A stretch of DNA of 64,000 nt, taken from assembly GCA_004379135.1 (NCBI GenBank), contig NBNI01000006.1:1-64000 (forward strand). Reading direction: 5' to 3'. Both the position numbers and the translations under genes were made by a program. The notes under the pieces are model-generated. The model was not told the origin of the DNA, made no database searches, and worked only from the letters and a program-made list of their open reading frames with translations. Shown here piece by piece: positions 7,974-45,264 of the stretch; position 1 is the stretch's first letter; each line of letters starts with the position of its first letter. Source of the stretch: Acidimicrobiales bacterium mtb01 (GTDB taxonomy: Bacteria; Actinomycetota; Acidimicrobiia; Acidimicrobiales; Ilumatobacteraceae).

Positions 7974-8750
7974 TCAGCGGTCTCCGAGCGACTGAACCTG
8001 GGCGAACAAGAATCGCGAGCGTTCCACCGAGTCGACAAAAGCCTCGCGGAGAAATCGTGAACGCACCTCGAACGACAGCGGCACCGCTGGTACTGCGGCG
8101 AGCAACCCTTCGATTGGCAATGCACCCTCACCCGGCAACAGGCGTCCGTTGAGTGCCTCGTCGAGAAGCGGGGCGAACTCGACCGGAGCAACCGAGGGAG
8201 CATCGGCGATCTGCAGATACGGAAACCTCTCGACGTCGATCGAACGGATGTCGTCGATCGTTCCCCCGGACCGGGACAAGTGAAGGTTGTCCACGAGGAT
8301 CCCAGCCACATCAGAACGGTGTCGAATCACCACGTCGTGTGCCATCGATAGCGACCGCAACGGGAAGATCGGAAGGAACTCGCACACCAACGCGACGCCG
8401 TGTTCGCGGGCAACTTCGCAGAGCGACGCGAAACGATCGACGGTGGCCGACAACTCGGGCAGGCGACTCGTGAACAGAACGTGTCGGGCTCCGATTTCCG
8501 CCGCGGTCTCGATGATGCGTTCACCGTTGTCGAGGTGATCGGGTGCCGGGATCACGGGCTCGAGATCGAGGGCGACCAAACCGGTATCGAGGAGACGTCG
8601 GCGAACCTCGCGAGTCGTCGTGGCCGACCAAGTCTGCGGGTCGAACCAGACACCACAGGCGGGCCAGCCCCCGAGTGCTGCGACTTCGACCATTCGTTCG
8701 GGAGCGAGATCGGGATGTACGCCCGCTGCTATCGACAACAACCGCGCCAC
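7974..8750 (-). CDS. Sugar phosphate isomerase/epimerase-like TIM barrel (hydroxypyruvate isomerase-like)
   Basis: 258 residues from a GTG at 8750, starting ARLLSIAAGVHPDL. The xylose-isomerase-like TIM barrel metal set can be followed as Glu (VCEF), Asp (VDNLHLSRSGG), Gln (YLQIADAP) and Glu (SFEV). This Glu-Asp-Gln-Glu pattern is typical of hydroxypyruvate isomerase-like enzymes. The true substrate is unknown. The GTG was preferred over an upstream in-frame start at 8840 because TACGTT (8762-8757) lies exactly 6 nt before it and because the longer form would run into the divergent esterase gene. Confidence 0.75.
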   Translation of the reverse strand: MARLLSIAAGVHPDLAPERMVEVAALGGWPACGVWFDPQTWSATTTREVRRRLLDTGLVALDLEPVIPAPDHLDNGERIIETAAEIGARHVLFTSRLPELSATVDRFASLCEVAREHGVALVCEFLPIFPLRSLSMAHDVVIRHRSDVAGILVDNLHLSRSGGTIDDIRSIDVERFPYLQIADAPSVAPVEFAPLLDEALNGRLLPGEGALPIEGLLAAVPAVPLSFEVRSRFLREAFVDSVERSRFLFAQVQSLGDR

Positions 8751-8773
8751 GTCACGAACGTAGCCTGCTGGAC
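8751..8773. promoter_or_regulatory. Divergent promoter with -10 boxes sharing one TA step
   Basis: Only 23 bp separate the two GTG starts. The minus-strand box TACGTT (8762-8757, 6 nt before GTG 8750) and the plus-strand box TAGCCT (8761-8766, 7 nt before GTG 8774) overlap by the two bases 8761-8762. Neither gene has a Shine-Dalgarno sequence, so both transcripts are probably leaderless and compete for one polymerase site. Confidence 0.6.
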
Positions 8774-9928
8774 GTGACGAGACGACGACCCGAGTTGGCA
8801 GGCGTGTCGCTTCTGCTCGGCTGGACCGTGAGCGAAGCACCGCTCTTGTGCGCGGTCGGGCAGACCATTCTGCACATCCGTGGCCTTCGTCGCCTCGGGC
8901 CCTTGGGTCGGGCGGCTCTGTGGTTACTCACGCCAGCGCTGTGGATCTTCTACGCCTTCATGTATCGCGAAGGTCGGAAGGCCGGCGGTATCGCCGCCGG
9001 TGCGCTGAGCAACGAGATACCCGATCACGAGGGGCCGGTCTTGTCCGGGGTTGCTCCACGTCGCGTGGCGCCGTACCGGCCGCTACCGCTGCTTCATCGC
9101 GACTACACGACCTCCGACACCCGCGATATCGCATACGGCCCGGATCCGAAGTTCAACCGGCTCGACATCTGGCGTCGACCCGACATCCCCACATCACAGC
9201 ACACACCGGTTCTCGTGCAGATCCATGGCGGCGGATGGATGATCGGCGACAACAAGACGCAGGCGTTGCCGTTGTTGGCGGCAGCGGCCGAGGCGGGCTG
9301 GACCTGTGTGGTTCCTCGCTACCGACTCAGTCCGCGAGCCCCCTGGCCCGATCACATCATCGACGTCAACAGCGTGATCGCCTGGACGAAGGCCAACATC
9401 GCGACTTTCGGCGGAGACGCGTCATTCGTCGCCATCACCGGCGGATCGGCCGGCGGCCATCTCACGTCGCTCGCGGCCCTCGCATCCAGTCACCCCGACT
9501 TCAAACCCGGATTCGAGGATGCCGACACATCCGTGCAGGCGGCGGTTCCGTTCTACGGTGCGTACGACTGGACCGACCGCGACGGCACGCAGGGACCGAC
9601 CCTGGCCGAGTTCATCGCACGTTGGGTGGTGAAGCGTTCGAAAACCGAGGCCCCCGACGTGTACGAACGAGCCTCACCGCGCTCGTGGATCCGACCCGAC
9701 GCTCCGCCGTTCTTCGTGCTGCACGGGGTGATCGACTCGCTCCTCACGGTGGAGCAGGCCCGCGCGTTCGTGAACGAACTACGAGCCACGTCGACCTCGC
9801 CGGTTGTGTACGCCGAGTTGCCGTGGGCCGAGCATGCATTCGATCTCACCCAGAGCGTGCGCACGCGGGGCGTGATCCCGCCGATTTTGTCGTTCTTGAA
9901 GACGGCGTACGAAGCGACTCGCGACTGA
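8774..9928 (+). CDS. Alpha/beta-hydrolase esterase with N-terminal membrane segments
   Basis: 384 residues. The N-terminus (about 10-70) is hydrophobic and probably holds two membrane helices. The catalytic domain then shows the oxyanion motif HGGGW (from His151) and the nucleophile in GGSAGG (Ser225), as in the hormone-sensitive-lipase family of esterases. An acidic residue in the VIDS segment and a His in AEHAFD complete the triad. GTG 8774 was chosen because TAGCCT lies 7 nt before it; the longer in-frame form from 8543 would overlap the divergent isomerase gene. Confidence 0.82.
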   Translation: MTRRRPELAGVSLLLGWTVSEAPLLCAVGQTILHIRGLRRLGPLGRAALWLLTPALWIFYAFMYREGRKAGGIAAGALSNEIPDHEGPVLSGVAPRRVAPYRPLPLLHRDYTTSDTRDIAYGPDPKFNRLDIWRRPDIPTSQHTPVLVQIHGGGWMIGDNKTQALPLLAAAAEAGWTCVVPRYRLSPRAPWPDHIIDVNSVIAWTKANIATFGGDASFVAITGGSAGGHLTSLAALASSHPDFKPGFEDADTSVQAAVPFYGAYDWTDRDGTQGPTLAEFIARWVVKRSKTEAPDVYERASPRSWIRPDAPPFFVLHGVIDSLLTVEQARAFVNELRATSTSPVVYAELPWAEHAFDLTQSVRTRGVIPPILSFLKTAYEATRD

Positions 9929-17043: not shown

Positions 17044-18530
17044 CGACCATTCCCCGACCCGATCCGAACGTGTTGGCGGTTCGGACCGGCATTCACATGA
17101 AAGCCGACCCGAGTCGTGTGTTCGCACGACTCTTCATTCCCGGCCAGGAGGACTTCGGGGTCACTCAGTCGCGCGCCACCGCGGTGCTCGAACGAGTCCT
17201 CGAACTCGACGAAACCGAAGTGGAAGCCGCGCTGAACGACGTACTCCTGAGGTTCGCCAATCGGCACGACGACATCCACTATTGGCTCGACCTCCACGCC
17301 CACCGAGTGACCAACCGCCTCGATGCACCGGTACGGCTGAGCGATAACCGATGGCGGCTCATCGGCGCCTACTTCACCCACGAATTCTCGGTAGAGGGCG
17401 CCGCCCTCACCAATCCATCGGTCGTTCGACATCCCGACCAATCGGACGTCGAACGGGGATGGTGTCGTTTTGCCATGAGCGCCCGCTGCATCGGCGAGGG
17501 CCACCGATCGTCCATCGGATTCCGTACCGGTGTGGTGAACGATCTCGGCGACGTCGTGATGGATCCGGTCGCCGGCGACATCGACGTGGGCCTGCACTCC
17601 GAGGGTCATCTGCGCCACGTCGCGTTTCGAGGTCTACTCGAATCGATGGGCGATCTCGGCGAGAACGCCCAACAGGTTCTCCATCAACTCGGTGACGTGT
17701 TCCATCCGTCCGACCTCGAGGAGCAGCTCAACCGGCTGATCCACGACCGCGACACCTATCGCAACGCCGAGGTGACGGCGCATCATTTCCGTCAGATCGC
17801 CGATCGCTCGTACTCGGTGTCGTTCTCGGCCGACTCGCATCTCAGCGAGCGGGTCATCTGGCCGAGGGCCCAGGCGGAATGGCGTGGCATGGAGGACGCA
17901 CGTTTCGTCGAATTCGACGATCCCGAGATGGGCCACATCTACTTCGCCACCTACACCGCCTTCGACGGCGTGGATGTAGCCCAGCAGTTGCTCTCCACCC
18001 GGGACTTCCTCACGTTCGAGATCACCCCGGTCTCGGGTACGGCCGCGCGGGGCAAGGGGTTGGCGATCTTCCCGCGCAAGGTCGGCGGCCGCTTCGCCGC
18101 GCTGTCACGGGCCGATCGCGAGAGCAACTCGATCGCGTTCTCCGACCACCTCGAGTACTGGAACGAGTCGACCGCCATTCAACTCCCCCGTCGCTCGTGG
18201 GAGGTCGTCCAATTGGGGAATTGCGGATCGCCGATCGAGACGTCGGCGGGCTGGCTCGTCATGACCCATGCGGTCGGACCCATGCGCACTTACTGCATCA
18301 GTGCACTGTTGCTCGACCGGCACGATCCCGAGCGAGTGATCGGAAGCCTGGGCACGCCGCTCCTCGTCCCGAGCGAACTCGAACAGGATGGATACGTCCC
18401 GAATGTCGTGTATTCGTGCGGATCGATGCGCTTCGAGAACACCTTGCTGATCCCGTTCGGGATCGCCGACCAATCGATCGGCATTGCGACAGCCGAACTC
18501 GATCAGGTACTCGATCGTTTGGTCGGCTGA
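17040..18530 (+). CDS. GH130-like glycoside phosphorylase/hydrolase
   Basis: 496 residues. The C-terminal two thirds look like the five-bladed propeller of GH130: NPSVV near residue 120 and MEDARFVEF followed by a YFATYTAF strand. This family acts on beta-mannosides by phosphorolysis or hydrolysis. The N-terminal extension (about 1-110) is common in the larger GH130 subgroup. It is last of the four ATGA-coupled genes. The 3' end is 17 bp from the convergent monooxygenase stop, with an imperfect palindrome between. Confidence 0.8.
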   Translation: MTTIPRPDPNVLAVRTGIHMKADPSRVFARLFIPGQEDFGVTQSRATAVLERVLELDETEVEAALNDVLLRFANRHDDIHYWLDLHAHRVTNRLDAPVRLSDNRWRLIGAYFTHEFSVEGAALTNPSVVRHPDQSDVERGWCRFAMSARCIGEGHRSSIGFRTGVVNDLGDVVMDPVAGDIDVGLHSEGHLRHVAFRGLLESMGDLGENAQQVLHQLGDVFHPSDLEEQLNRLIHDRDTYRNAEVTAHHFRQIADRSYSVSFSADSHLSERVIWPRAQAEWRGMEDARFVEFDDPEMGHIYFATYTAFDGVDVAQQLLSTRDFLTFEITPVSGTAARGKGLAIFPRKVGGRFAALSRADRESNSIAFSDHLEYWNESTAIQLPRRSWEVVQLGNCGSPIETSAGWLVMTHAVGPMRTYCISALLLDRHDPERVIGSLGTPLLVPSELEQDGYVPNVVYSCGSMRFENTLLIPFGIADQSIGIATAELDQVLDRLVG

Positions 18531-18547
18531 TACGACTCAGTCGTCGA

Positions 18548-22479: not shown

Positions 22480-24924
22480 ATGACGCGACAAATCAAACAC
22501 CGGACTCGACCTTCGAAGTCGACTATCAGCACCTTGACGGTGTTGTGCATCATCCTTGCTTCGGCTCCGGTCCACACACTTGCTGGCAAAGCAGCGGATC
22601 AGGAATCTTCGCAACTCATCGATGAGATCGTCATCGATCGGATCGACGGTCGGGCACCGTCGACCGCCGAAGCCCTCAAGCTTCTGCACATCCAAGATGT
22701 CGAGGTTTCCTCGATCGGCGGCGGGTTCGACGTGGTCGGTTTCGACGAGCCAATCTCGTCCGCCGAAGCCCACGAAGTGATCGATCGGCTCGAATCGAGC
22801 GGATACTTCGAGTCGGTGACCATTTCTACAACCCGCAGGCGACTGGCCGCGCCGAACGACCCTCGCTACCCCGATCAGTGGTACCTGCAGTCGACCGGGT
22901 TGGGAATCGGCATCGAACAAGCGTGGGAGATCACCACCGGCTCACCCGACCTCGTGATCGCGGTCCTCGACACCGGGCGACTCGATCATCCCGACGTGTC
23001 GAGTCGAACGGTCCCCGGCTACGACTTCGTGTATCGAACACGCGACAGCAAGGACGGCGACGGATGGGACGCCGACGAGACCGACCTCGGTGATTGGGCC
23101 GATCCGAACGATGCGGAATTCGCCTGCATCTCGACTCCCAGCACCTCGCAGAGTTCGTGGCACGGCACCTACATCGCCGGGATGATCGCAGCCGATACCA
23201 ACAACGGCAAGGGGATCGCAGGGATCAACCAACGCTCCCGGATTCAGCATGTGCGAGTGCTCGGCACGTGCGGCGGACGCACCGTCGATGAGGCGACGGC
23301 CATTCGATGGGCTGCCGGCCTTCCCGTCCCAGGTGTTCCAACCAACCCGACGCCCGCTCGAGTGATCAACATGAGCCTGGGTTCGGCCGTGGCGTGCGAA
23401 TCCGTCGAGCAGAGTGCCATCGACGCCGCCGTCGCAGCCGGAGCGGTGATCGTGGCCTCCGCAGGAAACTCCAACTTCAACCTCAGCATCACCGACTTCG
23501 CACCTGCCGGCTGCAACAACGTGATCGCCGTCTCCTCCGTGGGGAACACCGGGTTGCGCGCGTCCTACTCGAACTATGGAGGGCCGGTCGACATCGCCGC
23601 CCCCGGTGGCCCGAGCGGAATCCTGTCCGCGTCCAACGCAGGAACCCGGTCGGCCGACCTCGGTTCGAACGGCTGGATATACAGCTACAAACAGGGAACC
23701 AGCATGGCAGCCGCCGTGGTCAGCGGCATCGTCTCTCTCATGCTTTCAGCGAACCCGTCGCTCAACGCGGAGCAGGTCCAAGCAATCCTCCGTCAAACGG
23801 CTCGTCCCTTTCCCACCGGTTCGGGCGCTTGTTCGAGCGACCCGACCCAGACGTACTACTGCGGAGCCGGAATCGTGAGCGCGAGTGCGGCGGTCGCTCT
23901 CGCCGCGCAATCGAGTTCCGGAGCAACCGTGACCCGACTCGAGCAGAGCGAGAACGACGACATCTTCGCGACCAACCTGGCCGTTGAACACGCGGCCGAG
24001 CGCTCCGACATCATTCTCACGAGTGGCAGCGTCTACCCCGATGGGTTGGCCGCAGCCGCGCTGGCCAAACAGGAAGACGCCGACATCATCCTCGTGCCGC
24101 CCTCCGGCCTGACCCCGAACCAGGTCACCTCGATCCTCAACGAGAATCCTCAAGAGGTCTGGATCATGGGAGGGCCCGAGGCGCTGCCGACTTCCCTCGA
24201 GATCCAACTCCAATCTCCGAGTTGGCTCGGCGGAGCCGGAGTCGACGCGTCTCGTGTGAGACGCGTCTTCGGTGCCACACGTTATGAGACAGCCACCGCG
24301 GTGGCCGGTCGAATCGGCACGATCGGGACCATCAACGGCAAGCGCACCGCATTCGTCGTTCGCGGCGACAGCTTCGCCGATGCCGTAATCGCCGGACCGG
24401 CGACGTTCGGCCCCGCCGATTCGGCGGGCGCCTTCCCGATCCTTCTCGTTCAACGCGATCGACTGCCCGATTCGGTGAAGACGTCGCTGCAGGGTCTCGG
24501 GATCACCAACGTCGTCATCGTCGGCGGAACGAGCGTCGTTTCCGATTCCACCAAGAGGCAGATCGAAGCCCTCGGCATCACCACGTACCGGGTGGCCGGC
24601 GCCGACCGCTACGGGACCGCGACGGCCCTCGCCAACTTCCTCACCGCGCCGACAACGATCGGGGGGTTCGGCTGGAGCGCCTCGAACGTGGGCATCGTCA
24701 ATATTTCCGACGAATCGAAGGGTTTCGACGCCATTTCCGCAACAGGGATACTCGGTCCGACCCGTCGCGCTCTCATCGGTGCCACCTCGTCACAGGTTCC
24801 GGTCGCTACCGGAGCATGGCTCTCACAACTCAACGGAACCATTCAAGCGGTCACCGTCATCGGCAGTCGGGCGGCGCTTCCTTCGACCGTGATCGATCAG
24901 GCCACGATTCTCCTTCGTCGTTGA
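22480..24924 (+). CDS. Secreted subtilisin-like protease with CWB2 cell-wall-binding repeats
   Basis: 814 residues. Signal peptide about 1-36. A prodomain-like region (about 45-125) precedes an S8 catalytic domain with Asp164 (VLDTG), His228 (HGTYIAGM), Asn in ASAGNSN and Ser408 (GTSMAA): a complete triad. From about residue 485 to the end are CWB2 repeats (FATNLAVEHAA, GGPEALP, RVFGATRYETA, VIVGGTSVVS, RVAGADRYGTA), which bind wall polymers non-covalently. The enzyme is probably held at the cell surface. The TGA stop abuts the stop of the convergent flavin-binding gene with no gap (TGATCA). Confidence 0.9.
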   Translation: MTRQIKHRTRPSKSTISTLTVLCIILASAPVHTLAGKAADQESSQLIDEIVIDRIDGRAPSTAEALKLLHIQDVEVSSIGGGFDVVGFDEPISSAEAHEVIDRLESSGYFESVTISTTRRRLAAPNDPRYPDQWYLQSTGLGIGIEQAWEITTGSPDLVIAVLDTGRLDHPDVSSRTVPGYDFVYRTRDSKDGDGWDADETDLGDWADPNDAEFACISTPSTSQSSWHGTYIAGMIAADTNNGKGIAGINQRSRIQHVRVLGTCGGRTVDEATAIRWAAGLPVPGVPTNPTPARVINMSLGSAVACESVEQSAIDAAVAAGAVIVASAGNSNFNLSITDFAPAGCNNVIAVSSVGNTGLRASYSNYGGPVDIAAPGGPSGILSASNAGTRSADLGSNGWIYSYKQGTSMAAAVVSGIVSLMLSANPSLNAEQVQAILRQTARPFPTGSGACSSDPTQTYYCGAGIVSASAAVALAAQSSSGATVTRLEQSENDDIFATNLAVEHAAERSDIILTSGSVYPDGLAAAALAKQEDADIILVPPSGLTPNQVTSILNENPQEVWIMGGPEALPTSLEIQLQSPSWLGGAGVDASRVRRVFGATRYETATAVAGRIGTIGTINGKRTAFVVRGDSFADAVIAGPATFGPADSAGAFPILLVQRDRLPDSVKTSLQGLGITNVVIVGGTSVVSDSTKRQIEALGITTYRVAGADRYGTATALANFLTAPTTIGGFGWSASNVGIVNISDESKGFDAISATGILGPTRRALIGATSSQVPVATGAWLSQLNGTIQAVTVIGSRAALPSTVIDQATILLRR

Positions 24925-25236
24925 TCAAGCCGGGCGGTGCAGAACCGCCCGTCCGACGACGATCGACAGACCCTCGCCATTCACAGTGGCTCGACCGTCG
25001 GCGATCAACGAGTACTCGGACGTCTCGGAGGGAGGCCAGACGACGGTGACGAAGGGGTTGGCTTCGACGTCACGACGACTCGTTTTCCCGGTGGATACGA
25101 ACCGAAGAACGGCGCCATCGACCTCGGGCACCAGTGCCACCACGTGACTGCGGCCGTCGCAGACGGTGATCAGGTACGAGAAAGGACGATCGTGGAGTTG
25201 TTGCCCGATGTCGTGCGGTTCGACCGGAATGCTCAA
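24925..25236 (-). CDS. Small pyridoxamine-5'-phosphate-oxidase-like flavin-binding protein
   Basis: 103 residues, split-barrel type: PFSYLITVCDGRSHVVALVPEVDG, then RFVSTGKTSRRDVEANPFVTVVWPP. These proteins bind FMN or F420, and the function here is unknown. The TTG start at 25236 overlaps the TGA stop of the nitroreductase gene (TTGA), so the two are coupled. An in-frame GTG a few codons upstream is an alternative. The longer frame reaching to 25536 is a shadow of the nitroreductase gene. Confidence 0.68.
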   Translation of the reverse strand: MSIPVEPHDIGQQLHDRPFSYLITVCDGRSHVVALVPEVDGAVLRFVSTGKTSRRDVEANPFVTVVWPPSETSEYSLIADGRATVNGEGLSIVVGRAVLHRPA

Positions 25237-25910
25237 CGGTGCGATCCCCACGAGTCCCAGTGCGTCATGGTCGACGACGGGAGTCGGTGGGCCGGCTTGA
25301 AGTCGTCGCCGGTGTAGTACGCGACCGGGAACAACACGGTCTGGGTCCACTCGGGCGGAATGCCGAGGAGTTGGCTGATCTCCTGCTCCTTGAAGAGGTG
25401 GATGGTGGTCCAGGCCGTGCCCAGACCGCGCGAGCGCAAGGCCAGCATGAAACTCCACGCGGCCGGAAGGATCGATCCGTAGGTGGACGCCTGCGCGACG
25501 ACCATCGGCACCTGCTCGACTCGACCCTGCACGCACGCGATCACGTGTACGGAAACCCGGTCGAGCACCTCACCGAGATACTGCGCCGACTCCATGACCT
25601 TGGGCATCACGTGCTCGCGCGGGTCGCCGGGCGGGAGCGGCGGCGGGTAACCCGAACCAGCCATGATCTCGCCGGCTCCTCGGTAGGTGTCGGCGATCAC
25701 TTTGCGCTTGGCCGCGTCGGTGACCACGACGAACGCCCAGTTCTGCGCGTTGGTGCCGGTGGGTGCCTGCAGGGCGATGTCGATGCATTCCTGGATGACC
25801 GACTGCTCGACCGGACGGTCGAGATCGAGTCGCTTGCGCACCGAGCGCGTGGTGGTGAGCAGTTTGTCGGCCGAGGCGCGATCGATTCCGGGAACTGATG
25901 ACGATGACAT
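25233..25910 (-). CDS. Nitroreductase-family flavoprotein
   Basis: 225 residues. The FMN-binding signature TRSVRKRLDLDRPV and IALQAPTGTNAQNWAFVVV open the fold, and a C-terminal segment with AWSFMLALRSRGLGTAWTT matches the family. It reduces an unknown substrate with NAD(P)H. TAGGGT (25922-25917) is exactly 6 nt before the ATG and no ribosome site is seen, so this gene probably has its own leaderless promoter in the 17-bp gap after the enoyl-CoA hydratase gene. Confidence 0.87.
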   Translation of the reverse strand: MSSSSVPGIDRASADKLLTTTRSVRKRLDLDRPVEQSVIQECIDIALQAPTGTNAQNWAFVVVTDAAKRKVIADTYRGAGEIMAGSGYPPPLPPGDPREHVMPKVMESAQYLGEVLDRVSVHVIACVQGRVEQVPMVVAQASTYGSILPAAWSFMLALRSRGLGTAWTTIHLFKEQEISQLLGIPPEWTQTVLFPVAYYTGDDFKPAHRLPSSTMTHWDSWGSHR

Positions 25911-29381: not shown

Positions 29382-30308
29382 CTACGGCGTCGAATCTCCC
29401 GGGGTTCGCGGCGTCGTCGACGAGGAATCGGGCACACTCGTATCGTCGGTGTCATCGCCGGTCGCACCGTCGTCGACGATGTCGCTGATCGCCTCGGGAG
29501 CCTCCATATCGGTGTCGAAGTCGGAGGGCAGACAGGCCCCCTTTCCGTCTCCGGGGGCACGACCCAAGACCTGCGAGATCTTCTCCACCAGGAAGTCGTT
29601 GCCATCCGCGGACGGATGGATGCCGTCACCCGCGAGAACGCCCGGAGCCTTCGAAATGGCCCGCCAGTCGACGAACCACACGTTGTCTCGCGAGATCACC
29701 TCGTTCTCGATGGCCGAGTTCACGTCGCGCTGACTTTGCCGGAACTCGCTGGTGGTGAACAAGACCACCGGACGCGGCGACATCTCATCGAGAACCTGAC
29801 CGAGAACGCGCTTGTACTCGGGACGATTGCCCCAGTAATTGGTGCCGAGGAACAGCACGAAGGCGTCCCACTCGTCGGGGTCCTTCGCATCGAGAACGGT
29901 GGATGCGAACGTGATGCCGCGCCCGATCTCGGCCTCGATCGACATCTGCCAGCCGAGGGGAACGATCGACTTGCAGGCGATGTTGGTGAACCGGCGCGAC
30001 ACCATCGCCAGGATCGAGTCGCCGATCATGAGGACGCGCGGACCGGTCGCCGCCTCACCGACGGTCGATTGCTGAACCGGAATTCTTCGACCGTCGGTGA
30101 AGGTCGAGGGAACTGCACCGGGCACTTCGAGGTACAAGCCGATGGGCGGCAACGATCCGACGCCGGCAACCGTGGCCGGGACGGTGGACGACTCGGTCGG
30201 ACCGGAAGCGTCGTTGGAGCAACCCGCGAGCGAGATGGCCAGAAAGATGGCCAGCGAGGCGGCGACGGTCGTCGCGGCGAACGAAGGGCGCGGACGCGAC
30301 GACTTCAT
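29382..30308 (-). CDS. SGNH/GDSL-type hydrolase, predicted lipoprotein
   Basis: 308 residues. The N-terminus has a lipobox LAGC, so it is a predicted membrane-tethered lipoprotein on the outside. SGNH landmarks: the Ser in VLMIGDSILAM, the Asn in FLGTNYWGN, and Asp/His in DGIHPSADG. The C-terminus is acidic and Thr/Ser-rich. It may remove acyl groups from lipids or wall glycans. It overlaps the mscL gene as ATGA, which ties it to a membrane-stress channel. Confidence 0.82.
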   Translation of the reverse strand: MKSSRPRPSFAATTVAASLAIFLAISLAGCSNDASGPTESSTVPATVAGVGSLPPIGLYLEVPGAVPSTFTDGRRIPVQQSTVGEAATGPRVLMIGDSILAMVSRRFTNIACKSIVPLGWQMSIEAEIGRGITFASTVLDAKDPDEWDAFVLFLGTNYWGNRPEYKRVLGQVLDEMSPRPVVLFTTSEFRQSQRDVNSAIENEVISRDNVWFVDWRAISKAPGVLAGDGIHPSADGNDFLVEKISQVLGRAPGDGKGACLPSDFDTDMEAPEAISDIVDDGATGDDTDDTSVPDSSSTTPRTPGDSTP

Positions 30309-30703
30309 TCGTTGGTCGGGCGATGCGAACGCAACTCGTCGCGGATCTCGGTGAGCAGGCCGATCTCCGAAGGCGGGGCCACGGCTTCGTCACCGGTCGC
30401 CCGGTTGTAGATCTTGAGGATGGTGAAGAGGACGAATGCGATCGAGAGAAACGTCACGGCCACGGTCAGGAACGCGCCGAAGCGGATCTCGGCGTCGTTG
30501 ACGGTGAGAATGAGCACGTCGTCGAAATTGGGCTTGCCGAACGGGATGGCCACCGTGGGCATGATCACGTTCTCGACGAGCGCGGTGACCAGGCCCGTGA
30601 ACGCCGAACCCATCACGAATCCGATCGCGATGGCGACCAGGTTCCCCTTGTTGATGAAATCCCGGAATTCGGCGAAGAACTTCTTGACGAACTGACCTTT
30701 CAC
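30305..30703 (-). CDS. mscL: Large-conductance mechanosensitive channel MscL
   Basis: 132 residues. N-terminal amphipathic helix FVKKFFAEFRDFINKGN, first membrane helix VAIAIGFVMGSAFTGLVTALVENVIMP with the small-residue gate, second helix (about 77-98) and a cytoplasmic C-terminal helix LLTEIRDELR. It opens under membrane tension to release solutes. The GTG start is 7 nt after TACCGT (30716-30711), with a purine-rich AGGGGGA between, so both leaderless and SD-assisted initiation are possible. Coupled to the SGNH lipoprotein gene. Confidence 0.95.
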   Translation of the reverse strand: MKGQFVKKFFAEFRDFINKGNLVAIAIGFVMGSAFTGLVTALVENVIMPTVAIPFGKPNFDDVLILTVNDAEIRFGAFLTVAVTFLSIAFVLFTILKIYNRATGDEAVAPPSEIGLLTEIRDELRSHRPTNE

Positions 30704-30761
30704 TCCCCCTACGGTAACGACCCGCCCGCGAATCCGCCCGACACCGAGTATTTTCCGGAGC
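30704..30761. promoter_or_regulatory. 58-bp divergent leaderless promoter region (mscL / membrane protein)
   Basis: Minus-strand -10 TACCGT (30716-30711) is 7 nt before the mscL GTG. Plus-strand -10 TATTTT (30749-30754) is 7 nt before GTG 30762. Confidence 0.6.
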
Positions 30762-31619
30762 GTGAGCGGTTCACCGAATCAACGACCGGGAGAGTTGCCC
30801 GTCGAGTCAGCCGCCGAACTCCTGCTCGATCGTCTCGACGCGTTGCGCGTGCTGCGAGCCGATACCGACGAGGAGAAGGACGCTCTGCTCACTCAGATCG
30901 GTGGCAAGGGAAAGGTCGAACAGGAGATGGTCGCGGAGATGTCGGCCGTGCGGCCGCTGCACCATCCCGACCGCTTCGAGGAGGCGCACCGCATGATGGT
31001 CCGCGGCCTCGAGGTGCTCGATCGCAACGGCGCCCGACCCGCCGAGATCCGCCGACTCGGCCCTCTGAAGCCCATCGCCCAATGGCTCGTTCAGCAAGTG
31101 ACTCGTTGGATCGTGCGCAGCCACATCAACCGCCTGGCCGGTCGCGTGGCCGGACTCTACGAACGTCGTGAGGCGAACTCGGCCTGGGGAACGACCGAGC
31201 ACTCGATGCTTCGGCGTTCGCGGCTCGACATGCGGCGCGTGCAAGCCGGAATGAACGCCAAGGCGCTCGGACTCCCGACCTTCCTCCTCGGTGGCGCCGT
31301 TCTCACGTCCATCGTGAGCGGTCTGCAGAGCGCGGCGCGGGCCGCGCTCGACACGACCGCGGGCGTGATCGTGCTCGGTGTGATCCTGTTCGTGGTGCTC
31401 GGTTCGCTGTCGTGGGTCGCGCTCTTTAGCGCGAGCGTCGCCCGACGCCGCATCAAGTTGTCCACCCACCAGCCGACGCGAGCCTTGTGGGAAACCATCG
31501 GCGCCGCCGGCAAGCCGCCGCGCGACGAGAGCTACAACTTCGCGGCGTACGCGATCGTGCTGCTCGTGCTGTCGTGGATCGTGATCCCGCTGATCGTGTG
31601 GCTCGCCGTCACGGCGTAG
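30762..31619 (+). CDS. Membrane protein of unknown function with helical N-terminal domain
   Basis: 285 residues. The N-terminal two thirds are charged and helical (LLLDRLDALRVLRADTDEEKDALL; a coiled segment is possible). Membrane helices occur at about 175-195, 205-230 and 262-284. Not a family I recognise. Its divergent position to mscL suggests envelope stress, but this is only context. GTG start 7 nt after TATTTT, no ribosome site. Its 3' end overlaps the MFS gene by 11 nt within the palindrome CGCCGT-C-ACGGCG (31604-31616). Confidence 0.75.
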   Translation: MSGSPNQRPGELPVESAAELLLDRLDALRVLRADTDEEKDALLTQIGGKGKVEQEMVAEMSAVRPLHHPDRFEEAHRMMVRGLEVLDRNGARPAEIRRLGPLKPIAQWLVQQVTRWIVRSHINRLAGRVAGLYERREANSAWGTTEHSMLRRSRLDMRRVQAGMNAKALGLPTFLLGGAVLTSIVSGLQSAARAALDTTAGVIVLGVILFVVLGSLSWVALFSASVARRRIKLSTHQPTRALWETIGAAGKPPRDESYNFAAYAIVLLVLSWIVIPLIVWLAVTA

Positions 31620-35850: not shown

Positions 35851-35916
35851 CGCGATCCGATTCCGCCGACACCACCTGATTCGGCCGCACCCCGCGCGGG
35901 GTGACACCATCGCTCC

Positions 35917-36642
35917 ATGACGGTTCGTCACGTGATCCTCGTTCACGGCGCCTGGCACGGTGCGTGGTGCTGGGCCTCACTGCAGGCCGAACTCGAGCGG
36001 CGCGGCGTTCCGAGTCTGGCCATCGACCTCCCCGGGCACGGCGCGTCCACCGCGCCGTTGTCCGACTTGTACGGCGACGCCGCCGAAGTGTCGAGTGTCC
36101 TCACGATGCTGCGCGACCGCGGCGTGACCGATCCCGTGCTGGTGGGCCACAGCTACGGCGGGGCCGTGATCACCGAAGCCAGTCATCGCACTCCCCTCGC
36201 GAGCCATCTGGTGTACGTGGCGGCCTTCGCGCTGAACACCGGCGAGTCGGTGATGGGTGCTCTCGGTTCGTTCCCGCGCCACGACGTCGGGCTCGGACCC
36301 GCGATGGTGGCCCGGCCCGACGGCACGTCGGTCCTCGATCCGGCTCTGGCCGGACCCGCGCTCTACAACTGCTGCGACGAAGCGACCATCGCCTCGTCGC
36401 TCGCGCGCCTCTCGCCCCAACCAATGTCGACGGTCACGCAGGCGGTCACCGGGAACGGCCGCGATCGCATCGCGTCCACGTACGTGCTGTGCTCACGCGA
36501 CGATTCGGTGCATCCCGAACATCAGCGCATCATGGCGACGCGCTGCACTCGCACGATCGAACTCGACACCGATCACTCACCGTTCGCATCCATGACGCGC
36601 GAAACCGCCGACCTGCTCGAAGCACTCGCCCTCCGATCATGA
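35917..36642 (+). CDS. Alpha/beta-hydrolase
   Basis: 241 residues. LVHGAWHGAWCW carries the oxyanion HG, GHSYGG the nucleophile Ser, and SRDDSV plus the His in DTDHSPF the other triad members. The compact size and WHGAWCW pattern resemble the methylesterase/hydroxynitrile-lyase-like group. CACCAT (35905-35910) is 6 nt before the ATG. The stop overlaps the downstream luciferase-like gene by ATGA. Confidence 0.85.
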   Translation: MTVRHVILVHGAWHGAWCWASLQAELERRGVPSLAIDLPGHGASTAPLSDLYGDAAEVSSVLTMLRDRGVTDPVLVGHSYGGAVITEASHRTPLASHLVYVAAFALNTGESVMGALGSFPRHDVGLGPAMVARPDGTSVLDPALAGPALYNCCDEATIASSLARLSPQPMSTVTQAVTGNGRDRIASTYVLCSRDDSVHPEHQRIMATRCTRTIELDTDHSPFASMTRETADLLEALALRS

Positions 36643-37544
36643 AGATCCGCGTCGGCTACGGATTCGGGGTGCGGACCTCGTTGAACGACTCCGGATTCGC
36701 GACCGTGGTCGACGCCCTCGAGTCGTTGCGCTTCGACAGCCTGTGACTCAGCGAACGAATCGGCGGCGAGGCGCCCGATCCGCTGGTGGCCATGTCGTTC
36801 GCCGCCGGCCGAACCACTCGCTTGAAGTTCGGCATGAGCGTCATGGTCCTGCCGGGTCGCAACCCGGTGGTGCTGGCCAAGGAGTTGGCCACGCTCGATC
36901 GACTGTCGAACGGCCGACTCCTGCCGGCCTTCGGGTTGGGGGTGGCCGATCCGCACGAACAACAAGCGTTCGGTGTCGCACGCGAGGAGCGCGCCAAGCG
37001 CTTCGACGAGGCCCTGGCCGTGATGCGCAAGTGCTGGCTCGAGGACAAGGTCACCCACCACGGCGCGTTCTTCGATTACGACGATCTGCGCGTGCTGCCC
37101 AAGCCCGTGCAGACTCCACCCGACGTGTGGCTGGGCGGCATCGCACCGAGCGAACTCAAACGAGTCGGTCGGCTCGCCGACGGCTGGCTGCCCAGTTTCG
37201 TGACACCCGACGACGTGGCCGAGGGCCGCAAGGTGGTCGAGGAGGTCGCGGCCCAACACGACCGCACGATCGACCCCGAGCACTTCGGCGCGCTCATTCC
37301 GTACACGCTTGGTCCACTTCCCGACGCCCTTCGTGCCGGACTGTTGGCTCGTCGACCCGACCTCGACGACGTGAGCACATTGGTTCCGCAGGGTTGGTCG
37401 GCGTTGCGCGACACCATCGGCCGATTCGTCGACGCCGGGTTCTCGAAGTTCGTGGCGATCCCGATCGTCGAGCCGCCGTCGCCGAACGCGTGGGTCGATC
37501 ACCTCGGCGAGGCCGCCGGGCAGTTGCTACCCCTGCAGACCTGA
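36639..37544 (+). pseudogene. Luciferase-like F420-type oxidoreductase with in-frame TGA at codon 36
   Basis: Codons run in one frame from ATG 36639 (ATGA overlap with the hydrolase) to 37544, 301 codons, except for TGA at 36744-36746. It stands where relatives carry Trp (FDSL-stop-LSERIGGEAPDP; the family has SLWxSER). A single TGG to TGA change explains it. Both sides are good family sequence (before: MKIRVGYGFG; after: RNPVVLAKELATLDRLSNGRL). It could be a recent nonsense mutation, a sequencing or assembly error, or readthrough. Re-initiation at ATG 36786 would lose the first barrel strand. Confidence 0.85.
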
Positions 37545-38567
37545 CAACCAGGCGTGCACGTTGCGGCCGATGGCCTCGATGTCGTAGCCGCCCTCTTGCA
37601 ACACGACGGTCGGAATACCGAGCGACTTCACCACTTCGCCGCAACGGCGGTAACCGTCAGTGGTGAGTGCGAGGTCGGAGATCGGATCGTTCCAGTACGT
37701 GTCGACACCGAGCGACACCACGACCACCGCTGGTTTGAACGCCGCGACACGGGACGCCACATCGGCGAGTCGCGTGACGTACACGTCGTCGGCCGTCTCG
37801 GCCGGTAGCGGAACGTTGATGGTGGATCCACGACCCGCACCGGCTCCGGTCTCGTCCTCGTAACCGATGTACCACGGGTACGCCCGCTCGGGGTCGCCGT
37901 GCAGCGACACGAACTGCACGTCGTCGCGTTCGTAGAAGATCTGCTGGGTGCCGTTGCCGTGGTGATAGTCGACGTCGAGGACGGTGACCTTCGACCCCGT
38001 GGTGGATGCGATGTGGTCGGCGACGATCGCCGCGTTGTTGAAGAAGCAGAATCCGCCGAACACGTCGGCCGCCGCGTGGTGACCGGGGGGACGGCAGAGT
38101 CCGTACGACGACGACGCCCCGTCGAGGACGATCTGCGCCGCGGTGAGAGCGACGTCGACGGACGCCCGAGCCGCCGTGTACGTGCCTTCGGCGAGCGGCG
38201 TGGCCGTCTCGTAGCACCAGTAGCCGAGACCCGACACCGCGTTGGTGGGAAGCGGCGGATCGCCCATGCCGGCGCGCAAACCTGGATGGAGCATCGCTTC
38301 GGGGAAGAACTCGGTGCGGCCCGTGCGGGCGTTGAGTTCGGCCCACGCCGTTTCGAGGAACGCGATGAGACCGGCGTGATGCACGGCTTCGATGGGTTCG
38401 ATGCCGAACTCGCGACGATCGACGAAACGGAACGTCGGATCGGTGGCCAACTGCTCGCGGATCGTCTCGGCGCGGCTCGGCTTCTCGTACGTGGGAATCG
38501 GCTGCCCCATGTTGATCTCGTGCTGCGGGCTGTGCAGTCGGTGCAGATCGGTCCAGACGACGTCCAT
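37527..38567 (-). CDS. Histone-deacetylase-family amidohydrolase (acetylpolyamine amidohydrolase-like)
   Basis: 346 residues. HDAC-family landmarks: RPPGHHA, DVDYHHGNGTQQIFY, the DP...LHGDP zone, and SLGVDTYWNDP; the His pair, Asp-His zinc ligands and distal Asp can all be followed. Bacterial members deacetylate polyamines or similar small amides. ATG 38567 lies 6 nt after TAACCT (38579-38574), so leaderless. The 3' end overlaps the convergent luciferase-like pseudogene by 18 nt. Confidence 0.88.
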   Translation of the reverse strand: MDVVWTDLHRLHSPQHEINMGQPIPTYEKPSRAETIREQLATDPTFRFVDRREFGIEPIEAVHHAGLIAFLETAWAELNARTGRTEFFPEAMLHPGLRAGMGDPPLPTNAVSGLGYWCYETATPLAEGTYTAARASVDVALTAAQIVLDGASSSYGLCRPPGHHAAADVFGGFCFFNNAAIVADHIASTTGSKVTVLDVDYHHGNGTQQIFYERDDVQFVSLHGDPERAYPWYIGYEDETGAGAGRGSTINVPLPAETADDVYVTRLADVASRVAAFKPAVVVVSLGVDTYWNDPISDLALTTDGYRRCGEVVKSLGIPTVVLQEGGYDIEAIGRNVHAWLSGLQG

Positions 38568-40787: not shown

Positions 40788-42845
40788 TCAGCCGACCCGC
40801 TCGACCTGCACGAGCGTGTCGTAGAAGGCCACACCGCCACCCCAGTCGGCTGGCGCGTCACTCGTGAGGACGTTGACGGTGTTCTTGTCGCGGGTTCGCG
40901 ACCACGTCCAGCCGAACGGAACGATCGCCATGCCCTCCCGCGTGCGGGGACGGTCGCTCACACGGGCCACGACGTCGATCGACCCCCGGTCGTTGAACAC
41001 TCGCACCCGGTCGCCGTCGCTGATCGCACGGGCGGCAGCATCGGCTTGGGTGAGTTCGCAATACATCTCGCCCTCGGGGCCGGCGTGGTCGGCGAGATGC
41101 GAGTACGACGAATTCAAGAACCGCTGGTGGGTCTTGGGCGACATCAGGACCAACGGGTACTTCGTGCTGGTCGGCCCGCCGGGACCCTCGACCGGCTGAC
41201 GGTATTCGGGCAGACGCCCGTGGCCCAGCGACTCGAGGCCGGAGTTGGCGAATTCGAATGTCCCCGACGGAGTGGCGAACCCTCCGTCGGCGTACGGCCG
41301 CAGGTCGTCGGGCAGCGGTAGGTGAACGACGGCGTCGCGCCGCAATACGTCGGCGTCGATCTTGGCGAGGTATTTCGCGAGCAGCGCTTCGTCCGACTCG
41401 AACAACTCGGGTTCGGTGAATCCCATCGCGCGGGCCAGGCGGCGCCACAGTTCGGTGTTCGGCACGCTCTCGCCCAGCGGCTCGATGGCCTTGTGGTTGA
41501 AGCCCAGGTAGAGGTGGCCCCACGCGGTGACCACGTCGTTCTGCTCGATCTGGGTGGTGGCCGGGAAGATCACGTCGGCGAACCGTGCGGTGTCGGTCAT
41601 GAACTGTTCGGACACGACCGTGAACAGATCGTCGCGCCGGAGACCGCGCATGATGGTCGCGGCCTCGGGTGCGGTGGCGACTGGATTGCCGTTGTAGACG
41701 AAGAGAGCCTTGACGGGCGGGTCGAGATTCGCGTCGGTCAGCGCCCGACCGATCCGGTTCATGCTGATGGGGCGACGGGGTTTGCCCGCCGCGAGATGCG
41801 GTGCACTGAACGAGTCGTCGTCGAGGAACGCGTTGTTGTACGAGCCGACGCTGCGCGAGAAACCGCCGCCCTTGTACTTCCATGCTCCGGTGAGAGCGGG
41901 TAGGCACACGAGCGTGCGGAAGAATTGGGCGCCGTGCTCGCGGTGCTCGGCCCCGATCAGGGTGCGAATGAAGGATTTCGTGGTGGTGCCGTAAACACGA
42001 GCAAGCTGCTCGATGACGCTGGCATCGACCCCGGTGATGGCCGCCGCACGTTGGGGTGTCCAGTCGGCGACGTGGCGAGTCAGTTCATCGAAGCCGGACG
42101 TGTGACGCTGCACGTAGTCGTGGTCGACCAGATCGTCGCGAACGAGCACGTGCATCATCGCCAACATGAGCGCGACGTCGGTACCCGGCAGGGGCTGGAT
42201 GAATTCGTCGGCGGCGTCGGCCGTGATGGTGCGCACCGGATCGATCACCACGACCCGCGCGCCCTGATTGCGGCGGGCCTCCTCGATGAACGGCCAGAGG
42301 TGTCGATTGGTGAGGCGCGTGTTGGTCCCCCACAGAAGGATGAGGTCGGCGTGGCGGACGTCGAGCGGATCGCAGGTGAGCGGTGAACCGAGAGCCGCTG
42401 CGGTTCCGCTCAGCGCGGTGGCACCACACAGGGAATCGACCTGCACCGATGATCCGAGTCGGGCGAAGAAGCGACGGTCGAGGGAGTTCATCATGAGCGA
42501 GCCCTGGGTTCCGGCGTCGCCCCACGGCACGACGGCCTGCCCGCCCCATGTGCGTACGATCTCGCCGACGCGATCGGCCACGTGAGCGAGCGCTTCGTCC
42601 CACGTCGCCGCGCGGAACTGCGCGTCGCCCTTGGCGCCCGTACGAATGAGCGGGGTGAGAATGCGGTCGGGGCTGTACACGCGATCGAGGAAGCGGTTGA
42701 CCTTCGGACACAGTTCGCCTTGCGAATACGGGTGGTCGGGATTGCCGCGCATCGACACCGCGCGACCGTCTTCCACCGTCACTTGCCAACCGCAGGAATC
42801 GGGGCAATCGTGGTGACACGTGCCGAGGACGATTCGCGTGGTCAC
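40788..42845 (-). CDS. Molybdopterin oxidoreductase with 4Fe-4S centre
   Basis: 685 residues from GTG 42845 (or 686 from GTG 42848). N-terminal 4Fe-4S binding Cys residues lie in CHHDCPDSC and ELCPK. Then WDEALAHVADRVGEI and DSLCGATALSG, where the Cys is the probable Mo ligand. The C-terminal domain (PLVLMSPKTHQRFLNSSY; GDRVRVFNDRGSI) binds the cofactor. It belongs to the DMSO-reductase superfamily; substrate is unknown. No partner subunit is encoded next door. CAGAAT (42857-42852) is 6 nt before GTG 42845. The longer in-frame form to 43514 crosses the SDR gene and is rejected. Confidence 0.87.
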   Translation of the reverse strand: MTTRIVLGTCHHDCPDSCGWQVTVEDGRAVSMRGNPDHPYSQGELCPKVNRFLDRVYSPDRILTPLIRTGAKGDAQFRAATWDEALAHVADRVGEIVRTWGGQAVVPWGDAGTQGSLMMNSLDRRFFARLGSSVQVDSLCGATALSGTAAALGSPLTCDPLDVRHADLILLWGTNTRLTNRHLWPFIEEARRNQGARVVVIDPVRTITADAADEFIQPLPGTDVALMLAMMHVLVRDDLVDHDYVQRHTSGFDELTRHVADWTPQRAAAITGVDASVIEQLARVYGTTTKSFIRTLIGAEHREHGAQFFRTLVCLPALTGAWKYKGGGFSRSVGSYNNAFLDDDSFSAPHLAAGKPRRPISMNRIGRALTDANLDPPVKALFVYNGNPVATAPEAATIMRGLRRDDLFTVVSEQFMTDTARFADVIFPATTQIEQNDVVTAWGHLYLGFNHKAIEPLGESVPNTELWRRLARAMGFTEPELFESDEALLAKYLAKIDADVLRRDAVVHLPLPDDLRPYADGGFATPSGTFEFANSGLESLGHGRLPEYRQPVEGPGGPTSTKYPLVLMSPKTHQRFLNSSYSHLADHAGPEGEMYCELTQADAAARAISDGDRVRVFNDRGSIDVVARVSDRPRTREGMAIVPFGWTWSRTRDKNTVNVLTSDAPADWGGGVAFYDTLVQVERVG

Positions 42846-42848
42846 CAC

Positions 42849-42920
42849 GACATTCTGACAGAGCACTCCATCGGCGAGGAAGGCACTTTGGGTGGTCCGC
42901 CGACAACTACGGTGTGATCC
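42849..42920. promoter_or_regulatory. Divergent leaderless promoter region (molybdopterin enzyme / SDR)
   Basis: Minus-strand CAGAAT (42857-42852) faces plus-strand TACGGT (42908-42913, 7 nt before GTG 42921) in a gap of about 72 bp. Neither start has a ribosome-binding site. Confidence 0.55.
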
Positions 42921-43790
42921 GTGGCCGACACGCCTTCCAATCCCCCGAGTCCGCTCGATCCCACTCCCCTCGGCATTCCGTTGGTGGGCGAAGAGACGAG
43001 CGAGATGATGCGCGCGGCGTTTCCCCTCCGGCTCGGATTGGTGGAGGGCAAGGTCGTGATCGTCACCGGTGCGGCGCGCGGTATCGGCGAGGCGGCCGCG
43101 CGGCTGTTCGCTTCCGAGGGCGCTGCCGTGATGGTGGTCGACAAGGACGTTGCCGCCGCCGAAGCAGTGGTGAAGGAGATCCGTACGCGCGGTGGCGAGG
43201 CCACGGCGTTCGATGCCGATCTCACGACCGAAGCCGACGTCGAGGCGATGGTTCTGTCGACGGTGCACGCGTACGGCCGCGTCGATTGCGCGTTCAACAA
43301 CGCCGGAATCAGCGGGCGCTTCGGGTCGTTCCTCGACCTGACGTTGAACGAGTGGCAGCAGATGATCTCGATCAACCTCACGAGCGTGTTCCTGTGCATG
43401 AAGTACGAGCTCGCGGTGATGGCGGTGCAGGGGTACGGGGTGATCGTGAATGCGTCGTCGAGTGCCGGCATCGTGGGCGCGCCGGGTCTGCCGCATTACA
43501 CGGCGGCCAAGCACGGTGTGCTCGGGCTCACGAAGTGCGCGGCCCAGGAGTTCGCGGCCAAAGGGGTGCGAGTGAACGCGGTCCTGCCCGGCACCACGCG
43601 CACACCGACGATCGAGGCCTACATCAATGGCGATCCGGCGGTCGAGCAGACCTTGGGGCGCAGTGTGGGACGCGGGTTCCTGGGCGAGGCCAGTGAGGTG
43701 GCCGAGGCTGCCGTGTGGTTGTGCAGCGATCGCGCGAGCTTCGTGAGCGGCGCGACGCTGGCCGTGGACGGCGCCACCACCAACCGCTGA
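42921..43790 (+). CDS. Short-chain dehydrogenase/reductase
   Basis: 289 residues. A non-family N-terminal extension of about 38 residues, then VIVTGAARGIG, DADL, NNAGISG, catalytic Ser in NASSSAG and YTAAK. Asp in VVDKD after strand 2 favours NAD over NADP. GTG start 7 nt after TACGGT. The gene ends 58 bp before the stop of the convergent MoxR-type gene, with a nested hairpin between. Confidence 0.88.
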   Translation: MADTPSNPPSPLDPTPLGIPLVGEETSEMMRAAFPLRLGLVEGKVVIVTGAARGIGEAAARLFASEGAAVMVVDKDVAAAEAVVKEIRTRGGEATAFDADLTTEADVEAMVLSTVHAYGRVDCAFNNAGISGRFGSFLDLTLNEWQQMISINLTSVFLCMKYELAVMAVQGYGVIVNASSSAGIVGAPGLPHYTAAKHGVLGLTKCAAQEFAAKGVRVNAVLPGTTRTPTIEAYINGDPAVEQTLGRSVGRGFLGEASEVAEAAVWLCSDRASFVSGATLAVDGATTNR

Positions 43791-43800
43791 CCTCTCCCCA

Positions 43801-43843
43801 TTGGGCGCGAAACCATGCCACTTCTGGCATGTCTGACGCCCAA
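43801..43843. terminator. Nested hairpin between SDR and MoxR-type genes
   Basis: Inner stem CATGCCA-CTTC-TGGCATG (43814-43831) inside a 7-bp outer stem TTGGGCG/CGCCCAA (43801-43807, 43837-43843). It lies in the 58-bp gap between convergent stops, so it can act on both transcripts. There is no T tract. Confidence 0.6.
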
Positions 43844-43848
43844 GCGAG

Positions 43849-45264
43849 TTACCGGGCGCGGTAGGTGCCGCCGGATGTCGAACTCGCGTCCTTATTCAGA
43901 CGCTTCGACAGGTGCAGGCCCTCCAGCACGAACTCGACCGCGGCCGCCGTGGCCGCCGCACTCGTGTCGCCGTTCAACAGATCGTCGAGGACCGGCTTGA
44001 GCGCCGGAATCTGCTCGGCCAGTGCCGCCTGGGTGACCGACGGGACGTCCTCCCCCGTCGTGACGATCGCACCTTCTTCGAAGGCCGTCACGACGTCGCG
44101 TGCCAATTCGGGTCGAACGACGTCGCGGTACACCGTGAGCACGGCCGCCTTCACGAGTTCGCGGAGGACCTGGCCTTCGCGTCCGTCCTCGAGAGCTTCC
44201 ACTTCGATCTTGCCGCCGGAAGCGGCCGCGAACGCGTCGAGATCGCACACCCGGGGCACGACGTAGGTCTCGCCCAGGCGCAGACCGCGGCGCAGTGCGT
44301 TGGCCGCCATGACTTCGTAATTGCTCACGCTCAGACGCACGCTCACACCGCTGCGCTGATTGACCTGGCTGCTGCTGCGCGCCAACTGGCTGAACGTGGC
44401 CACCACAGACTCGAGGTACGGCGGAACGGAGACCGTGATGTCGCCCACCGACGGCGGACGCGCCTCCTGGCGAACGATCTCCACTTCGGTCACGGCGTCG
44501 AGGGGATAGTGCGTGCGAATCTGGCTGCCGAAGCGATCCTTGAGCGGCGTGATGATGCGTCCGCGGTTGGTGTAGTCCTCGGGGTTCGCCGATGCGACGA
44601 GCAGAACGTCGAGAGGCAGTCGGATCTTGTAGCCGCGGATTTGGACGTCGCGCTCCTCGAGCACGTTGAGGAGACCCACCTGGATTCGCTCCGACAAGTC
44701 GGGCAGTTCGTTGATGGCGAAGATTCCCCGGTTCGTGCGGGGCACGAGTCCGTAGTGCAGCGTGAGTTCGTCGCTGAGATAGCGGCCCTCGGCGACCTTG
44801 ATGGGGTCGACCTCGCCGATGAGATCGGCGATGGACGTGTCGGGCGTGGCCAACTTCTCACCGAAACGGAGATCGCGATGCACCCACTCGATCGGCGCGT
44901 CGTCACCGTGCTGGGCAACGAGATCGCGCGCGTGGCGCGACACCGGGTTGTACGGATCGTCGTTGATCTCGCTGCCAGCGACGACGGGCATCCATTCGTC
45001 GAGCAGGTTGGTGAGGCTGCGGATCATGCGGGTCTTGGCCTGGCCGCGTTCACCCAGAAAGATGACGTCGTGTCCGGCGAGCAGCGCGTTCTCGAGCTGC
45101 GGCATGACGGTTTCTTCGTAACCGAGCACACCGGTGAACAACGGCTCACCGGCCGAGATGCGCTTGACGGCGTTGAGACGGATCTCCTCCTTGACGGGAC
45201 GCGACACCCATCCGGAGGCCCGCAGTTCGCGAATCGTCGTGGGGAGTCCGGAAGGTTGAGCCAT
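43849..45264 (-). CDS. MoxR/magnesium-chelatase-like AAA+ ATPase
   Basis: 471 residues. The nucleotide-binding loop reads GERGQAKT: the Gly before the Lys of the canonical Walker A is Ala here. The acidic Walker B-like segment is FAINELPDL, preceded by a glycine-free insert. A long C-terminal region (about 330-470) with HTH-like helices is unlike the MoxR at 61018-61929. No VWA partner is adjacent. ATG 45264 lies 6 nt after TACTGT (45276-45271); the longer form to 45318 is not supported. Confidence 0.78.
   Translation of the reverse strand: MAQPSGLPTTIRELRASGWVSRPVKEEIRLNAVKRISAGEPLFTGVLGYEETVMPQLENALLAGHDVIFLGERGQAKTRMIRSLTNLLDEWMPVVAGSEINDDPYNPVSRHARDLVAQHGDDAPIEWVHRDLRFGEKLATPDTSIADLIGEVDPIKVAEGRYLSDELTLHYGLVPRTNRGIFAINELPDLSERIQVGLLNVLEERDVQIRGYKIRLPLDVLLVASANPEDYTNRGRIITPLKDRFGSQIRTHYPLDAVTEVEIVRQEARPPSVGDITVSVPPYLESVVATFSQLARSSSQVNQRSGVSVRLSVSNYEVMAANALRRGLRLGETYVVPRVCDLDAFAAASGGKIEVEALEDGREGQVLRELVKAAVLTVYRDVVRPELARDVVTAFEEGAIVTTGEDVPSVTQAALAEQIPALKPVLDDLLNGDTSAAATAAAVEFVLEGLHLSKRLNKDASSTSGGTYRAR

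Follow-up and report, generated by a model that had tools for sequence, protein, structure and literature searches.

The window considered here, the whole stretch of 64,000 nucleotides analysed from Acidimicrobiales bacterium mtb01, contains a gene for a luciferase-like oxidoreductase whose reading frame extends on the forward strand from an ATG (36639–36641) to a terminal TGA (37542–37544). A single codon interrupts this frame, a TGA in place of codon 36, and the remainder is open, as an earlier note on this DNA had described. The gene is preceded by one for an alpha/beta hydrolase, the stop codon of which overlaps the oxidoreductase start in the tetranucleotide ATGA (Table 1), and from this overlap the two genes may be translationally coupled. 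Of 102 ortholog loci with 700 or more bases of upstream sequence (duplicates between collections counted), 66 have a relative of the hydrolase directly upstream in the same orientation.

Table 1. Features at and around the interrupted oxidoreductase gene (positions are those of the window)
Feature	Position	Strand	Remarks
Alpha/beta hydrolase gene	35917..36642	+	ORF; PF12697, E 1.6e-30; directly upstream of the oxidoreductase gene
Luciferase-like (LLM class, F420-type) oxidoreductase gene	36639..37544	+	Length 301 codons and a terminal stop; interruption at codon 36
TGA codon 36	36744..36746	+	TGG (Trp) in all orthologs read
Possible downstream restart	36786..37544	+	GTG at codon 50, or ATG 36792 at codon 52; ORF of 252 aa
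Histone-deacetylase-like family protein gene, convergent neighbour	37527..38567	-	ORF; PF00850, E 1.6e-72; overlaps the 3' end of the oxidoreductase gene

Translated through the TGA, the protein is 95% identical to its orthologs in the related genomes G001 and G011 across 301 residues, a similarity that extends to either side of the stop, and it matches PF00296 (Bac_luciferase) with an E-value of 2.1e-51 (175.6 bits against a cut-off of 27.9). Because of these ortholog and Pfam matches, the frame with its TGA is more than a chance reading in the wrong frame. The read-through protein scored above the curated cut-off of TIGR03619 (174.6 vs 166.9 bits), whereas the match to TIGR03854, which covers residues 4–300 of 301, reached 282.7 bits and fell just below the cut-off of 295.6. 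Judged by its profile scores, the oxidoreductase is thus no more than a close relative of the TIGR03854 equivalog. It resembles the LLM class F420-dependent oxidoreductases of these two families (PF00296) in the profile matches of its read-through product, and differs from them in the slightly low TIGR03854 score and in the interruption at codon 36, which is confined to this genome. The assignment to F420-type oxidoreductases, made in the earlier note from the letters alone, agrees with the PF00296 and TIGR03619 matches, and the motif SLWxSER given there takes the form SLWLSER around W36 in the closest relatives. A cofD homolog over its cut-off in the same genome suggests that the organism makes F420; the enzyme itself may use F420 rather than FMN.

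The tryptophan expected at codon 36 was found in every other ortholog gene read. Among 88 distinct ortholog genes, the interrupted one included (tblastn E below 1e-60, identical genes counted once, identities 55–95%), TGG occupies this position in all 87 others and TGA in the mtb01 genome alone; W36 is also invariant in an alignment of 25 ortholog proteins, and the genes of G001 and G011 are intact. In wider searches of the genus and the order, an internal stop appeared, among the matches listed, only in the row of mtb01 itself. Orthologs at E below 1e-140 were found in 19 of 23 same-genus relatives; G002, G009, G016 and G018, with completeness between 53 and 87%, showed none at E 1e-140. Across the order, 168 of 397 genomes, mtb01 included, gave a match with an E-value no higher than 1e-80 and 229 gave none. 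As four of the 23 genomes of the genus and these 229 of the order show no ortholog at the respective thresholds, the group can dispense with the gene.

Where it is present, the gene has been strongly constrained. With codon 36 left out, pairwise comparison gave dN 0.034 and dS 0.686 against G001 (dN/dS 0.05), dN 0.033 and dS 0.700 against G011, and dN 0.009 and dS 0.480 between G001 and G011. A calculation by hand from these values assigns a dN of about 0.029 and a dS of about 0.453 to the path that leads from the ancestor of G001 and G011 to the mtb01 tip, so that at most some 6% of this path can have been neutral. Codons identical in G001 and G011 and different in mtb01 comprise 52 synonymous and 8 nonsynonymous cases, codon 36 being one of the eight; the count is not polarised, and codon 91, which equals the outgroup, probably changed on the other branch. 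Such constraint implies that the stop is either recent or not real. The earlier suggestion of a recent lesion holds in this conditional form, given the low dN/dS and the restriction of the TGA to a single genome. We saw no relaxation of selection after the stop (dN/dS 0.05), and the same pattern is expected of a very young pseudogene.

The interruption was set against the surrounding genes by aligning 22 genes of the window (18.5–47.5 kb) to G001. Their dN/dS ranged from 0.019 to 0.273, the oxidoreductase being typical at 0.050, and it alone had an internal stop. No frameshift was observed in any of the 22, and in-frame gaps occurred in five. Four further matches in the window (two genes at 7980–9922 and the stretches 18329–18538 and 24937–25314), which were left out of this comparison, had no stop. 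Stops in the open frames 29385–30770 and 40794–43910 were considered as possible second lesions and rejected: both lie upstream of the likely gene starts, and the genes themselves have no internal stop against G001. The fastest-evolving of the 22 genes is that at 22480–24921 (67% identity to G001, dN/dS 0.27). The gene at 40788–43514 encodes a molybdopterin oxidoreductase in which about 228 residues would precede the Fe4S4 domain, if its GTG start is right.

Seventeen of the 22 window genes, the oxidoreductase gene among them, terminate in TGA, which is therefore an ordinary stop here. The genome encodes RF2 (prfB, over its cut-off) and, among the loci holding 45 tRNA hits, a single tRNA-Trp with anticodon CCA, a 5-bp anticodon stem, G24 and A9 (in our own numbering). 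The features of tRNA-Trp that have been connected with UGA reading, in the available part of PMC13092985, are a UCA anticodon, a 4-bp stem and A24 or C9. A code in which UGA means Trp, or a suppressor tRNA-Trp, was rejected on the features of this tRNA together with prfB and the 17 TGA stops. The view put forward in the earlier note, that the code is unchanged, therefore stands in so far as UGA is not generally reassigned; it left the selenocysteine machinery out of account. The genome has selA, selB, selD and a tRNA-Sec (anticodon TCA), each over its cut-off, and this machinery makes it probable that UGA carries a second meaning in the organism. Of 23 genomes searched within the genus, mtb01 included, 17 have a selA over its cut-off and 20 a tRNA-Sec, the tRNA-Sec hit in G013 being marginal; several of the remaining genomes are incomplete. 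The window spans C2:1–64000 of the mtb01 genome, and the loci of the Sec machinery lie outside it, at C4:157165–159344, C2:428017–428108 and C5:46362–47270.

As the likeliest reading, which we favour on balance and with modest confidence, the TGA is a real and recent nonsense mutation in an ordinary oxidoreductase gene. Its main rival is an error of assembly or sequencing, in which case the organism has no TGA at codon 36 and the gene is intact; this is a substantial possibility, although we think it the less probable of the two. The genome (2.56 Mb in 7 contigs, with an estimated completeness of 97.66%) looks like a metagenome assembly, and nearly all of 80 listed relatives, whose lineage labels include Actinomycetota, Acidimicrobiales and Ilumatobacteraceae, bear a MAG label. 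A lone one-base lesion in a strongly constrained gene is what an error would leave, and one such case in 2.56 Mb would be unremarkable. Against this, the assembly looks good where tested: the 22 window genes have no frameshift and this single stop, and all 25 of the genome's remaining LLM matches are free of stops in their matched stretches, although a lone substitution is still compatible with such quality. If the base is real, the ordinary tRNA-Trp could also read the UGA as a near-cognate codon and insert Trp, so that the gene would keep a low level of function; we consider this unlikely. Such reading would give back the amino acid found in the relatives, and leaky UGA with insertion of Trp in E. 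coli and Salmonella is described in the available text of PMC7918605, together with many bacterial in-frame stops in genes with dN/dS significantly under 1 (0.66 around TGA, its Table 1); the oxidoreductase gene too has a low value. The young age of the stop, however, already accounts for this low dN/dS, the tRNA-Trp lacks any suppressor feature, and most of the window genes end in TGA. The base is seen in one assembly, and the combination of intact constraint with no second lesion fits a young pseudogene, an error or read-through equally. Three points are inferred: the reality of the base, an ancestral Trp at this position and the inactivity of the product.

Programmed insertion of selenocysteine at UGA36 is poorly supported and, in our estimation, extremely improbable, in spite of the complete set of selA, selB, selD and tRNA-Sec. 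Like bacterial selenoprotein genes, such as those for Sec-FdhA, the gene carries an in-frame UGA and its genome encodes Sec machinery; unlike them, it has homologs with Trp rather than Cys, and no compact SECIS-like stem was found. As a general trend, Sec replaces redox-active Cys (PMC1794560, available text), whereas all 87 orthologs have Trp; on the sequence comparison it is this conservation that carries the argument, the hairpin test being weak. Under a loose criterion, the TGA is followed by a hairpin of -9.8 kcal/mol, an energy within the span of those of three Sec-FdhA genes from order-mates used as controls (-8.5, -12.2 and -11.2 kcal/mol), and one as strong follows only 16 of the 87 TGG ortholog codons and, in 20 window genes, 21 of 151 Trp codons. 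The loop of the mtb01 hairpin, however, measures 13 nt, and loose hairpins of some kind follow 84 of the 87 and 127 of the 151 codons. A compact stem (at least 5 bp, a loop of 3–6 and G in the first two bases, a criterion suggested by the controls themselves) was not found after the TGA of mtb01, whereas all three controls, which are three of five matches listed with an internal TGA (the other two being without a locus), have a stem of at least 6 bp about 18 nt past the UGA; 17 of the 87 TGG orthologs pass the same test by chance. Hairpins consequently decide little, as most Trp codons of this G+C-rich sequence are followed by one and these 17 orthologs pass even the compact test. A search of Rfam with positions 35900–37600 found nothing with an E-value of 1 or below. 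A further variant, in which the TGA is real, fixed in the species and serves as a low-output switch, with the constrained gene yielding its product by leaky UGA read as Trp (or as Sec, which is much less probable still), appears very improbable.

Under the favoured reading of a recent nonsense mutation, a single base change from TGG to TGA would have occurred on the mtb01 lineage, in the second gene of a small hydrolase–oxidoreductase unit. The ribosome would then halt within the second TIM-barrel strand and yield a peptide of 35 residues. A predicted model of the intact G001 ortholog (mean pLDDT 90), which resembles solved luciferase-like and F420-dependent enzymes, places a strand at residues 4–9, a helix at 19–29, a strand at 34–37 and a helix at 48–58, and the position of the stop falls within the strand 34–37. 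A protein begun anew at codon 50 or 52 would lack the first two strands of the barrel. On this predicted fold, in which the restarted product and the 35-residue one alike would miss barrel strands, the natural conclusion is a loss of function, and the strain would most likely be without this one F420-type oxidoreductase. No close paralog or obvious stand-in was found in its own genome, where the best-scoring paralog is 32% identical and none of the matched stretches is above 39%. If real, the lesion is a single gene loss caught early, and ordinary in its meaning. In-frame stops are widespread in bacterial genes according to the available text of PMC7918605; the present case is like those in that a single stop interrupts a gene whose dN/dS is far below 1, and unlike them in that the stop is found in one genome only and gives no sign of persistence over time.

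In genomes with Sec machinery, an in-frame TGA should be checked against SECIS elements and homologs before it is called either a lesion or a selenoprotein. No selenoprotein served by the Sec machinery of mtb01 itself was identified, and the available portion of PMC5029168 contains no mention of Acidimicrob or Ilumatobacter. In three other genomes of the order, FdhA genes (L186, L207 and L208), the controls of the hairpin test, carry a TGA at the Sec site followed by a compact SECIS-like hairpin. The FdhA-like protein of mtb01 (C5:78579–80438) has Cys, in a CHAPS motif, where these three order-mates have the TGA.
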